Source of the DNA: a virus
Direction: 5' to 3' (one strand)
Virus record (IMG/VR): IMGVR_UViG_3300017719_000067
Span: 1 to 34,795 of that record
Length of the DNA stretch: 34,795 nucleotides
The first letter of the stretch is position 1. Each line of letters begins with the position of its first letter. The notes beneath the pieces are model-generated. The model saw nothing but the letters and a program-made list of their open reading frames with translations, ran no database searches and had not been told where the DNA came from. Positions 5,742-9,520 of the stretch are shown here, piece by piece. Position numbers and translations under genes: made by a program.

Positions 5742-7883
5742 TTAGTCAGATCTATACGCTCCAAGATTTAATGCCATACCGGCTTTATTACCATCTATAA
5801 ATACATCACCACCTTCTTTTACTGCTGCTATTAATTCTTTGAGTAAAGTGTTAGTTTCTTCTCCAAATCTTGTACCGCCTGCCATTACCAAAGTATCTTT
5901 AGGGTTGGAGCGGATTGTAAAATCATTTACATTCATCTGATTATTAGATGGTAGTTTACTTTCTAATTCTCTTAATCTAACTCTTGCTTCCTCTATTCCT
6001 GCATTAGTGGCAAATGCTGTATCACTAGTTAACCCAAACGCACCTTTATTTAAAGTAGCTTTTTCAACTAAATCTTGATACTCTTGAGCACTAATCCCCA
6101 TTTTTGCAAAATCAGTAGCAGTACGATTACTAGCTACTTCTAATTGCTTTTGTTTTTGAGTTGCAGAAACTGTATCTACTCCTAAAAAACTACCTGTTTT
6201 ATTAGTAAGTTGAATTATAACATCGACTAATTGATTTAAGGCTCCTGAGTTTACTAAACCAGTAAATTGATCTTTAGCTTTTTCTAAAGCAGCTCCGTAA
6301 CTTTCCTGTATGGTAAGAGTCTTTTTAATTTCTTCATAGGTTGCTCCTTCTAATGCTAGTTGCTCTACTGCGTTTTGCTGTCCTATTTTACCTCCTCTAG
6401 CTAAAAGTTCATTATACTGTTTAGTTTGCATGTTGAGCCGTTCTTGAGTTAGAAAAGCTTTATTAATTTCCGAAACTGAAAGTCCTGTTGATTTAGCAAT
6501 AGACTGCATTATAATAGGACTCTTACGCTGTTCTTTAGTAAGACTTTGCATTTGCTTAAGAACTTCTTGGGTTGCTCCGGATACATCACCGGTCACTGCA
6601 AGAGTTCTAGCTCTCTCAAAGTTAAATTCTTTTCCTGTTAAAAGTTCGGCTTCTAATTCACTTCCTATAGAAGATTCAAAATCTAATAAACTTTTTGCTA
6701 CTGATGTGGCTTGTTCTAAGTTAAGTCCAAATTTACGAACCTGCAAAACTCCTCTGGCCATACTTTCAGCACTAAAACCAAAGTACCCTGCTACTTCAGA
6801 GCTAGTTTTAGATATTTCATTCATTATAGAGCTGAAAGGTACTGCATATCCGTTGGATAGAGCGAATTCTGTGTTTAACCCTATAATATTCTTATGAACT
6901 TCGTCAGCACTTTTACCTGTCGCACTAAGCATTATATTGAAGCTAGCTGCTGCTTCTCCTGATAATCCTAAATTTTTTGTAAGAAATACTTGACTTTCTA
7001 AAAGTTCACCACTAAATTTAACACTTGCACCTAGAGTATTTAGTAAACTACCTTGAGCTTCAACTAAAGATTTTGAATTTACAAGTATATTATCACTAGA
7101 AGAAGCTATTTTAACAAAATCTTTTCTTATATTCTCAGCTGCATCTCTGCTTATATTTAACTGTTTAGCTATCGCTATAGTTCTTTCCTGTGCAGAAACA
7201 AATAGACTTACTACAAACTTTAAAACTTTTACTAATGCACCAAGTGCAACTAGTGCTATAGTTCCTTTTTCTAGATTTTTAAACGCTGAGCTAATTCCTT
7301 TACCCATAAGCTTAAAGCCTGTGGTTCCTTTAGCTGCTTCTTCACGCATTGATTTTAAACCTTCATCGGCGTTAAGTATACTCCCGAAAAATTTATTACC
7401 AGCAAGACGTTTGAAAATTTCTCCAGTAGCACCCATATTTTTATCTATAGCTTGGGTACGTTTTTTATCATTTTTTATCTGTTCTTCTTGTATATCTAAA
7501 GCTTCTTTACTAGCTTTAAGATCTTCTAAATTTATTTCAGCTCCTAATTTTCTTGCTAACATTACTTTTCTTGCAAGAGCTGAACGTTTAACTGCAAGGG
7601 CATCTAGTTGTTTTTGTACATCTTTAGTACCTAAAACCCCTTGTTTTATTTTTGCTTGATTAGATGCTACATCATCAGAAAATTTTGCTGAAGATTTAAA
7701 AGCTCTTGTTAAATCATTGCCGACTGTTTTTAATACTGTGGCATCTACTCCGTCAAAAGCTTCATTTACAGCGTTTCTTAAAGATTCACCTATCTTAGCA
7801 GAAACACTTAAAAGAGTATCCTGTATATAGATTGAAGTATCATCTATTGCTTTCTGACTTCTTTTGTCCATATTATCTGCCAT
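5742..7883 (-). CDS. Tail tape measure protein
   Basis: This 713-residue, largely alpha-helical protein has charged coiled-coil-like N-terminal segments, a hydrophobic stretch at about 207-231 (GTIALVALGALVKVLKFVV), and a long Ala/Ser/Lys-rich helical body. Both the hydrophobic centre and the helicity are usual for tape measure proteins, which set tail length and enter the host envelope. At roughly 0.15 nm per residue, the length corresponds to a tail near 107 nm, in the range of T4-type tails. It lies directly after the gp26-like gene and its frameshift extension, the classic place for a tape measure. The ATG has a CTATTTAT box 17 nt upstream and no Shine-Dalgarno sequence. It corresponds functionally to T4 gp29. 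Confidence 0.8.
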   Translation of the reverse strand: MADNMDKRSQKAIDDTSIYIQDTLLSVSAKIGESLRNAVNEAFDGVDATVLKTVGNDLTRAFKSSAKFSDDVASNQAKIKQGVLGTKDVQKQLDALAVKRSALARKVMLARKLGAEINLEDLKASKEALDIQEEQIKNDKKRTQAIDKNMGATGEIFKRLAGNKFFGSILNADEGLKSMREEAAKGTTGFKLMGKGISSAFKNLEKGTIALVALGALVKVLKFVVSLFVSAQERTIAIAKQLNISRDAAENIRKDFVKIASSSDNILVNSKSLVEAQGSLLNTLGASVKFSGELLESQVFLTKNLGLSGEAAASFNIMLSATGKSADEVHKNIIGLNTEFALSNGYAVPFSSIMNEISKTSSEVAGYFGFSAESMARGVLQVRKFGLNLEQATSVAKSLLDFESSIGSELEAELLTGKEFNFERARTLAVTGDVSGATQEVLKQMQSLTKEQRKSPIIMQSIAKSTGLSVSEINKAFLTQERLNMQTKQYNELLARGGKIGQQNAVEQLALEGATYEEIKKTLTIQESYGAALEKAKDQFTGLVNSGALNQLVDVIIQLTNKTGSFLGVDTVSATQKQKQLEVASNRTATDFAKMGISAQEYQDLVEKATLNKGAFGLTSDTAFATNAGIEEARVRLRELESKLPSNNQMNVNDFTIRSNPKDTLVMAGGTRFGEETNTLLKELIAAVKEGGDVFIDGNKAGMALNLGAYRSD

Positions 7884-7909: not shown

Positions 7910-7936
7910 AAAGACCCCTATTTAGGAGAGGTCTTT
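7910..7936 (-). terminator. Hairpin at the end of the frameshift extension ORF
   Basis: The arms AAAGACC (7910-7916) and GGTCTTT (7930-7936) are perfectly complementary, with a possible inner CCT/AGG pairing. The stop codon of the extension ORF (7918-7920) lies inside the hairpin. The trailing U tract is short, so termination may be weak. Confidence 0.45.
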
Positions 7937-8178
7937 GTTGAGTAGCTAGGTCCTACACCCGGCCTTAGTATTTGAGGTTGTTGTGATTTTTTAGCATTTT
8001 GCCATTCTTTTTGTTGTTCGGATTGTTTATCGTAATATTCCTTTAATTTCTGAAAGGTAAATCTACGAATCCATATAGGCATATTATATACTTCAGACCA
8101 AGTATAACCGCCTTGTCCATTAAATACTATTTCGTGAATTTGTGAATATACTTGAAGTTTATACTTAGGCGTCAGGCC
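7918..8178 (-). CDS. Frameshift-expressed C-terminal extension of the gp26-like protein (tail assembly chaperone GT-like)
   Basis: This is an 86-codon frame in the +1 phase (equivalently -2) relative to the preceding gene. It is open only from just after an in-frame TAA at 8196-8194, so its overlap with the upstream gene is confined to the region around a T7 run (8185-8179). Reading through the shift gives GLTPKYKLQVYSQIHEIVFN, then GQGGYTWSEVYNMPIWIRRF and a Lys/Gln-rich helical tail. The IHE-GQGGY-YNMPxWxRxFTF pattern looks like a real conserved domain. There is no good start codon near its beginning; the internal ATG at 8082-8080 would remove most of the domain. The position, directly before the tape measure, matches the G/GT tail-assembly-chaperone layout. 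A fused product would be about 329-330 residues. Confidence 0.65.
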   Translation of the reverse strand, partial: GLTPKYKLQVYSQIHEIVFNGQGGYTWSEVYNMPIWIRRFTFQKLKEYYDKQSEQQKEWQNAKKSQQPQILRPGVGPSYSTKTSPK

Positions 8179-8908
8179 AAAAAAAGTTAATTGTTATCGG
8201 CAGATCGACGTCCTCCTGGCCGCCATCTTCAGTATCAATAGAGATATTCATATCAAGATCTGGAGATATTTGATTGTAGTATTCACGTAATGCTCTTGCA
8301 TCTTTAGCAAGTAGGTATTTGTCTACAAATTCTCTAATATCTTTCTTTTCAGTAATGCCGTTTACTGATGTAAGTGTGTATTTAAGACGAGTTGTAACTT
8401 CCGCTACATTATCTTTATTAATTTTTCTTAAACCTTCGATCTCTCTATCTATATTTTTTTCATCACCATGAGTTAGCAACCTAAAGGTAACTGTGTTATC
8501 TGTATGTGGTAATTTAAAAGCAAATTCATTTTTCTTACCTTCAAGTAAAGTATAGTCAATATCTTTATTCTCTAAAGTAGATAAGTCAACTGTGTGCTCT
8601 TCTCCGGTATATGTAATATTGTAATCTTTTCCGTATGACAAAATACGTGCTGCTATCATTATAGCATTTTTATCTCCTATAAGTAGATCGTTGTAGTTAA
8701 ATCCTTCAGTAACTATTAAGGACTGCAGTAGTTTATCTAATACAACTCCTTTACGTATAAAGTTCTGATTGGTTAAAATGTCCTCTTCCTTGGCAGTCAT
8801 GTACTTCATTTCAATAGTACCTTTGGAAAGAGGACTGTCTTCAGGGTAAAGAAGACCTTTTGATGGTAGTTCCACAACCTCAGTTGGTAACGAAAATTTG
8901 GATTCCAT
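8165..8908 (-). CDS. 26: T4 gp26-like (T4_baseplate family) protein, probable tail assembly chaperone
   Basis: This 247-residue soluble protein begins MESKFSLPTEVVELPSKGLL and contains KYMTAKEEDILTNQNFI, followed by a conserved-looking KNAIMIAARILSYGKDY. The LPSKGxxYP and MTAKEED signatures are those I associate with the T4 gp26-like baseplate/assembly family widespread in marine T4-like phages. The C-terminus in the zero frame is NFFWPDA then stop. The FF codons lie in a T7 run that could shift ribosomes into the downstream +1 frame. It has its own promoter-like box and lies after a strong terminator. Whether it acts as baseplate hub subunit or as chaperone for the tape measure is not settled by sequence; the context favours the latter. 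Confidence 0.65.
   Translation of the reverse strand: MESKFSLPTEVVELPSKGLLYPEDSPLSKGTIEMKYMTAKEEDILTNQNFIRKGVVLDKLLQSLIVTEGFNYNDLLIGDKNAIMIAARILSYGKDYNITYTGEEHTVDLSTLENKDIDYTLLEGKKNEFAFKLPHTDNTVTFRLLTHGDEKNIDREIEGLRKINKDNVAEVTTRLKYTLTSVNGITEKKDIREFVDKYLLAKDARALREYYNQISPDLDMNISIDTEDGGQEDVDLPITINFFWPDA
8179..8185 (-). promoter_or_regulatory. Candidate programmed frameshift site (T7 run)
   Basis: The coding strand reads AAC TTT TTT TGG. A net +1 or -2 slip on this heptameric T run joins the gp26-like frame to the 86-codon extension; a -1 slip would hit TGA after two codons. The two frames overlap only from a few codons upstream of this run to the zero-frame stop five codons downstream. Confidence 0.6.
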
Positions 8909-9028: not shown

Positions 9029-9520
9029 TTAAAAATTCAATACGCAATAATCCATTGCAACAGTAAGTGAAAGGTCTACTACTTCGTCTGTAGCCCAGTC
9101 AAACTGACCAAAGTCACCATTTACAATAAATGCTCCTTTGATAACCCATTCAGATACTACATCACCTACAGGTCCTAAGACTTGTAACTTAAGATCTTTT
9201 TTGTAGAAGTCTGAATATCCAGCACGTCCTGTTACTGATTCATAAGATAAACGAGCCCATTCCATTACTGCTTGTGCTCCAGATGGAGTAATCGGATCAT
9301 AAAGCACCATATCCATATCTTGCCATTCTCTCTTCCCACGAATCTTTCTATAAGAGTTAATGTGGTCAAGTTTGATAGAGTTATCCTGGAAGGTAGGTGC
9401 TTTTACGTTCTTCACCATAAAGCCCTGGATGCCTGTATCGGCCATGCTGATTATAAATCTATTTTGAACCTTGGGCTCGAAGGCTCTGAACATGATTTCG
9501 CTTGAATCTAATACTGCCAT
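9029..9520 (-). CDS. 19: Tail tube protein (gp19)
   Basis: This 163-residue protein forms the inner tube of the contractile tail. It begins MAVLDSSEIMFRAFEPKVQN and shows the gp19-type order: RFIISMADTG, then VKAPTFQDNSIKLDHINSYR, KIRGKREWQDM, LYDPITPSGAQAVMEWA, and a C-terminal beta-rich half ending SLTVAMDYCVLNF. The length matches T4 gp19 (about 163 residues). It follows the sheath gene at a 34-nt gap containing an ATATTTAT box 14 nt before the ATG, and ends at a strong terminator. Tube subunits are needed in many copies, which fits a separate late promoter. Confidence 0.92.
   Translation of the reverse strand: MAVLDSSEIMFRAFEPKVQNRFIISMADTGIQGFMVKNVKAPTFQDNSIKLDHINSYRKIRGKREWQDMDMVLYDPITPSGAQAVMEWARLSYESVTGRAGYSDFYKKDLKLQVLGPVGDVVSEWVIKGAFIVNGDFGQFDWATDEVVDLSLTVAMDYCVLNF

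Follow-up and report, generated by a model that had tools for sequence, protein, structure and literature searches.

A probable +1 frameshift at the end of the gp26-like tail assembly chaperone gene in a T4-like phage and its relatives

The viral DNA analysed here (called the window) is the whole 34,795-nucleotide stretch of IMG/VR virus record IMGVR_UViG_3300017719_000067. With a probability of roughly 0.92, it encodes two tail assembly chaperones from one start site: TAC-N, which is gp26-like, and TAC-NC, which is gp51-like and would be produced by +1 frameshifting. The majority of ribosomes would terminate where the gp26-like gene ends and release TAC-N. A minority would slip one base forward at TTT-T, where tRNA-Phe can move from UUU to UUU, and would continue in the +1 frame to give TAC-NC, which ends in a helical domain of 86 residues. 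By analogy with lambda gpG and gpGT (PMC5009743), the probable role of the N part is to coat the tape measure protein, and that of the C part of TAC-NC to recruit tail tube subunits. We infer that both products are made, and likewise their ratio and their binding partners. We prefer this reading because of the modest fold matches, the profile links of the C-domain and the gene order.

On the minus strand the order is sheath, tail tube, gp26-like gene, an unannotated stretch and the presumed tape measure gene (Table 1). In the annotations of phages immuto, Mel-JY01 and SP-15, too, tail tube and tape measure are the neighbours of the TAC-N gene. In immuto, the counterpart of the tail tube gene (L001:3404-3892) is named 'tail completion protein' in one record and tail tube in RefSeq. 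Family searches with profiles gave no match for the presumed tape measure gene of the window (5742..7883). TAC-N matched PF12322 with 30.4 bits (curated cut-off 24.5), and its phrog_150 label reads 'baseplate hub'.

Table 1. Features of the putative chaperone locus and its neighbours in the window
Feature	Position	Strand	Remarks
TAC-N gene, gp26-like (PF12322 / phrog_150)	8165..8908	-	zero frame, 247 aa; conserved in all relatives
T7 run	8185-8179	-	inside slip block
Slip block TTT TTT TGG CCT GAC	8171..8185	-	hardly varies among 58 representatives, even at wobble positions
AGGAGG	8212..8217	-	26 nt 5' of T run; Shine-Dalgarno-like, putative role
Putative TAC-NC C-domain, +1 frame	7918..8178	-	GGC at 8178, stop TAG 7920-7918, 86 aa
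TAA ending TAC-N, zero frame	8165..8167	-	read from sequence
TAA closing +1 frame 5' of slip site	8194..8196	-	read from sequence
Presumed tape measure gene, 713 aa	5742..7883	-	directly downstream; position, and annotation in immuto and SP-15
Tail tube protein, gp19-like	9029..9520	-	directly upstream; phrog_4542, E 8e-22
Sheath	11714-9555	-	gene order of the window

An earlier note on this DNA had described a gp26-like frame ending NFFWPDA-stop with its two Phe codons in the T7 run, and the sequence from 8908 to 8165 agrees, the gene terminating in AAC TTT TTT TGG CCT GAC GCC TAA. Also as described there, the frame that is +1 or -2 to this gene is shut by the upstream TAA (8196-8194) and then open across the T7 run to the TAG at 7920-7918, while a -1 shift would fail because TGA is reached within three codons. 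The 86 residues that follow the slip (8178-7921) therefore predict a fused product of 329 aa. The same note had proposed that these residues form a cryptic domain without a usable start, and this is borne out in the window, where the +1 frame holds no ATG, GTG or TTG between the closing TAA and an internal ATG at 8082. That ATG sits within the conserved C-domain. Since the TAA shuts the +1 frame, the C-domain has no start further upstream.

It might be thought that the C-domain is simply a separate gene with a start of its own, its frame relation to the TAC-N gene being accidental or a matter of translational coupling. The internal ATG at 8082 could serve such a gene, and in a few derived contigs (L100 and L105 among them) the C-domain does begin with an ATG. 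We consider this explanation extremely unlikely, however, because the part of the domain ahead of 8082 has no start codon in the +1 frame of the window; likewise, ATG, GTG and TTG are missing from the +1 frame ahead of the conserved GGY motif in 32 of 83 close relatives. Nor would a free gene be expected to keep to the +1 frame as faithfully as the C-domain does.

The extent of this conservation became clear from homologous loci, whose alignment the earlier note had proposed. In tblastn searches the two parts adjoined, always in a mutual +1 relation, in immuto, Mel-JY01 and an uncultured large phage. A set of 83 close relatives (80 IMG/VR contigs, Flavobacterium phage immuto, Microcystis phage Mel-JY01 and the uncultured LR756508) had the C-domain in the +1 frame without exception; one of them, L038, had been scored as -1 in a first tally by ORF length alone, but its C-domain actually lies in +1. 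A wider set, which contains a few contigs twice, gave 267 loci with the C-domain beside the N gene; of these, 254 have it in +1 and 13 in -1. Some of the later wide scans were run without any peptide pattern for the slip site, so the conservation of the slip codons is not an artefact of the search. Homologues in which the homopolymer leaves one uninterrupted frame, or in which the two regions start independently, would tell against a frameshift; what we found is only a few derived contigs in which the slip codons are lost and an ATG is present instead.

The frame relation is thus neither a sequencing error nor a product of chance. Homopolymers are error-prone, and an error of sequencing or assembly in the T run would create an apparent frameshift from a continuous gene. 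The relation recurs, however, in isolated phages (immuto, Mel-JY01, SP-15, LIS04 and GXN1) and in over 250 loci altogether, with runs of varied length. For the family as a whole sequencing error is excluded, and as an explanation of the window it has a negligible probability.

The codons at the site are as telling as the frames. Among the 254 loci in +1, 213 read TTT TTT TGG, 14 TTC TTT TGG and 10 TTT CTT TGG; the remainder have TTT TTT followed by TAT, TAC, CAC or AGT, or else CTT TTT TGG, TTT CTT TAC, TTT CTA or TTC TTT CGT. A slip codon of the type TTT-T, TTT-C or CTT-T, on which the tRNA can re-pair one base ahead, is present in 253 of the 254. The exception is L144 (IMG/VR 3300006810_003627), which has a premature stop in its N gene and may be a degraded copy or contain a sequencing error. 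Three further phages have suitable sites: BRock and LuckySocke of Streptomyces read CTG TTT C with the +1 frame open, and RM378 of Rhodothermus reads TTT TTT TGG. They are suggestive only, because their C-domains failed the profile search.

These variants also bear on the direction and level of the shift. The earlier note had left the choice between +1 and -2, and a ribosomal shift of two bases backwards, as known from phage Mu (PMC5009743), would enter the same frame with one additional Phe. The T7 run of the window permits both re-pairings. In the 14 relatives with TTC TTT TGG, and at TTC TTT C and AAC TTT C, the tRNA-Phe would face UCU or ACU after a -2 move, whereas a +1 slip can be accommodated at every one of these sites. 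We therefore retain the +1 half of the proposal and drop -2 as a general mechanism; for the window itself it is very unlikely. RNA polymerase is known to slip on homopolymer runs, and the T7 run is such a run, so that mixed mRNAs might be produced and the fusion be translated from an altered transcript. This is highly unlikely, given that the frame relation is kept where only three or four T are present (TTC TTT TGG, TTT CTT TGG, TTC TTT C). Because such sites offer neither -2 re-pairing nor a long T run, +1 ribosomal slippage is the only mechanism that fits them all, and judged from the sequences the shift is +1.

Selection appears to act on the site beyond its codons for Phe. We compared 58 representative relatives with less than 85% nucleotide identity. 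TTT-YTT-TGG-CCT-GA is near-invariant among them, wobble positions included, and so is TTTYTTTGGCCTGA. Coding in two frames explains part of this invariance but neither the first TTT nor the preceding codon. The first Phe codon is TTT in 58/58, against 84% elsewhere. When the codon immediately 5' of the run encodes Asn it is AAC (36/36; background 0.36), and when it encodes Ser it is AGC (10/10; background 0.06). C thus nearly always stands before the run, so that the clade of the window avoids the -1 heptamer. Three codons 5' of the run, Gly is encoded by GGG in 33 of 44 cases (background 0.08).

A second element lies further upstream. AGGAGG stands 26 or 23 nt 5' of the run, with little variation in spacing; it is perfect in 35 of the 58 representatives and has one mismatch in another 15. 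The two Glu codons at this place are GAG 73 times and GAA three times, against 216 GAG and 942 GAA elsewhere (p 1.5e-45, a nominal value because the sequences are related), and synonymous shuffling yielded AGGAGG in at most 10 of the 58. AGGAGG and the codon bias point to selection on the mRNA in addition to that on the protein. The upstream AGGAGG may stimulate the shift, although its distance is, to our knowledge, larger than that of known frameshift stimulators. It is absent from some +1 lineages (the TTT TTT TAT group, GXN1 and LIS04), and L105 retains it though its slip codons are lost.

A contribution of RNA structure found no support in our calculations. Downstream of the site, folding energies were about those of shuffled sequences and similar to those of control stretches, and RNAalifold gave no consensus structure near the site. 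The spacers from AGGAGG to the slip site did fold a little better than synonymous controls (-4.1 against -2.5 kcal/mol), but they have no structure in common, and we do not propose a hairpin there.

The N and C parts were folded separately, not as a fusion. The TAC-N model, with a pLDDT of 92, matched viral proteins of PF12322 type. When 801 PDB chains were re-aligned to it, the best was YqbN (Z 5.6) and the second the HK97 tail assembly chaperone gp13 (Z 4.7), both weak matches with Z below 8. We take YqbN to be a homologue of the PBSX/skin-type tail chaperones. Foldseek of the N model against the PDB gave no match at E below 0.001, and a sequence search of solved structures returned nothing relevant. 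The C-domain was modelled as a three-helix unit with a mean pLDDT of 83. It had no match at E below 0.001 in a viral fold search, where a gp51 and a 'tape measure chaperone' rank low on the list. Four of 46 C-domain members matched phrog_634 ('baseplate hub assembly catalyst') weakly, and a few relatives of the domain weakly match a tail assembly chaperone family. By profile comparison the +1 C-domains are related to those of -1 phages (74%) and the latter to the C-terminus of T4 gp51 (96.5%), whereas the direct comparison of the +1 C-domain with the gp51 C-terminus gave 0.4%, the two being linked only via the -1 relatives. T4 gp26 and gp51 both match the PF12322 model. The suggestion in the earlier note that the locus has the layout of the G/GT chaperones is therefore upheld, by gene position, by the conserved frame relation and slip codons, by PF12322 and, weakly, by the structural matches to YqbN and HK97.

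In a few relatives the slip codons have been lost naturally. L100 (TTC TTG) and L105 (TTC CTT) have the C-domain in another frame, with an ATG of its own just past the stop. In L154, over the region from 2708 to about 3740, and in L155 (IMG/VR 3300031951_000638 and 3300042691_031580) the arrangement differs, and the site reads TTC TTC. An ORF resembling homing endonucleases of the GIY-YIG type lies exactly at the frameshift junction of both contigs, right behind the stop. The C-domain resumes after this ORF, behind an apparent second N-protein end, and there contains in-frame ATG codons that are possible starts. All four contigs nest within the +1 clade in the N-domain tree.

Beyond this clade, T TTT TT[C/T/G] is found at the homologous Phe codons of the cyanophages Bellamy, P-SSM2 and S-CRM01, of Methylophilales phage Melnitz-2, of KVP40, Aeromonas phage P19, Rhizobium phage RHph_I1_9, Agrobacterium phage Atu_ph07, XacN1, Vibrio phage 2.275, Munch and Serratia phage BF, and of two metagenomic phages (loci of the -1 layout: L113, L114, L115, L116, L119-L125, L127, L128, L007 and L110). 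Their -1 frame is open for 56-79 codons, and several have a GAGGG-like stretch 8-9 nt 5' of the site. From these sequence features, a -1 frameshift is likely where the PF12322 gene of cyanophages, KVP40 and jumbo phages ends. In many annotations the -1 'gp51' part is a small gene of its own, and such a gene may represent the shifted tail only. In Vibrio phage D510 (L126), whose PF12322 gene ends CTT TTC AAG TAA, the slip heptamer is missing; an ATG at the stop opens an ORF in the -1 frame, possibly a separately started C-part. In T4, Aeromonas phage 31 and RB43 gp51 is fused in frame, and for T4 and phage 31 a separate gp26 is annotated as well.

Seven changes suffice to explain these four states on the N-domain tree, compared with about 20 when the labels are shuffled. 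How often, and in which direction, +1 and -1 were exchanged is not fixed, as the tree has some deep branches that are long and uncertain. It is possible rather than probable that in a large branch of T4-type phages a dedicated two-part +1 signal, consisting of the ribosome-pairing AGGAGG and C-TTT-YTT-TGG-CCT-GA, sets the ratio of the chaperones, and that the polarity of the shift has changed more than once with the same fusion as outcome.

Where the Adele paper cites Vladimirov et al. 2022, polyT -1 signals in T4-like TAC-N genes are given as known (PMC12846349), and the PRFect paper cites the same work for T4-like phages with a short and a long gene (PMC10885494). The -1 signals in T4-like chaperone genes are probably already known. 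What appears to be new is the +1 version with its conserved signal, as well as the switch of polarity: our literature search, which covered Vladimirov et al. 2022 through citing papers only, found no +1 shift for the PF12322 family. A practical consequence is a correction of annotation, as the C-terminal part is at present 'hypothetical', a separate 'gp51' or missed in many genomes. In immuto the C-domain is annotated (L001:4854-4964) as a hypothetical protein that starts at an internal ATG. For +1 frameshifting, a process for which we know of no general motif, the conserved AGGAGG provides an element that can be tested by experiment.

The arrangement closely resembles that of lambda gpG/gpGT and other long-tailed phages, in which the genes for tail tube and tape measure flank that of the chaperone and a short and a long product are made from one start, the C-domain being reached by a frameshift shortly before the first gene ends (PMC5009743). 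It differs from the lambda type in its PF12322 protein of about 247 aa, in the shift, which is +1 instead of -1, in the site TTT-YTT-TGG and in the AGGAGG at 23-26 nt. The -1 class (lambda, P2, Vandenendeviridae) does not include the window, because its run follows a C and its -1 frame is soon closed by TGA, and the sites TTC TTT TGG and their like show that re-pairing two bases back, as in the Mu-type -2 class, is not family-wide. The same gene, the Phe codons and a related C-domain are shared with the T TTT TTN phages (cyanophages, KVP40, Atu_ph07, Munch and others), but these probably shift -1 on the heptamer, whereas the clade of the window would shift +1 and has a C before the run that avoids the heptamer.

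Among recoding events in general, the +1 frameshift of Escherichia coli prfB at CUU UGA provides a useful comparison. There, as proposed here, the P-site codon re-pairs one base ahead and a Shine-Dalgarno-like element lies upstream; the relatives with TTT CTT TGG would even use the same CUU to UUU re-pairing. Unlike in prfB, the A-site codon is TGG and not a stop, and AGGAGG is much farther away. The system described in PMC3014915 has a Shine-Dalgarno element towards the end of the same gene, 27 nt away from its target, but that element serves an AUG via a hairpin, and in the family of the window no conserved hairpin was found. Forward shifts are not foreign to tail chaperones. The counterpart gene of the Halorubrum myovirus HSTV-2 has a +1 frameshift (PMC5009743), and the training data of PRFect contain 350 forward cases in phage genomes, and most of the joined genes there encode tail assembly chaperones (PMC10274946); HSTV-2 and the SEA-PHAGES cases thus share the polarity of the window.

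T4 has been named as the exception to G/GT frameshifting among long-tailed phages (PMC5009743). T4 gp26 and gp51 are likewise short and long forms of the PF12322 family, but T4 keeps them as two genes, with an in-frame fusion in the long one, and the window has one gene with a probable +1 shift. Our results suggest that the exception is T4 with its near kin and that many of its distant relatives frameshift, -1 or +1, at the same codons. The family therefore presents a set of natural experiments, in which one fusion is reached via +1, via -1 or by gene duplication, alongside contigs with an ATG-started C-domain.
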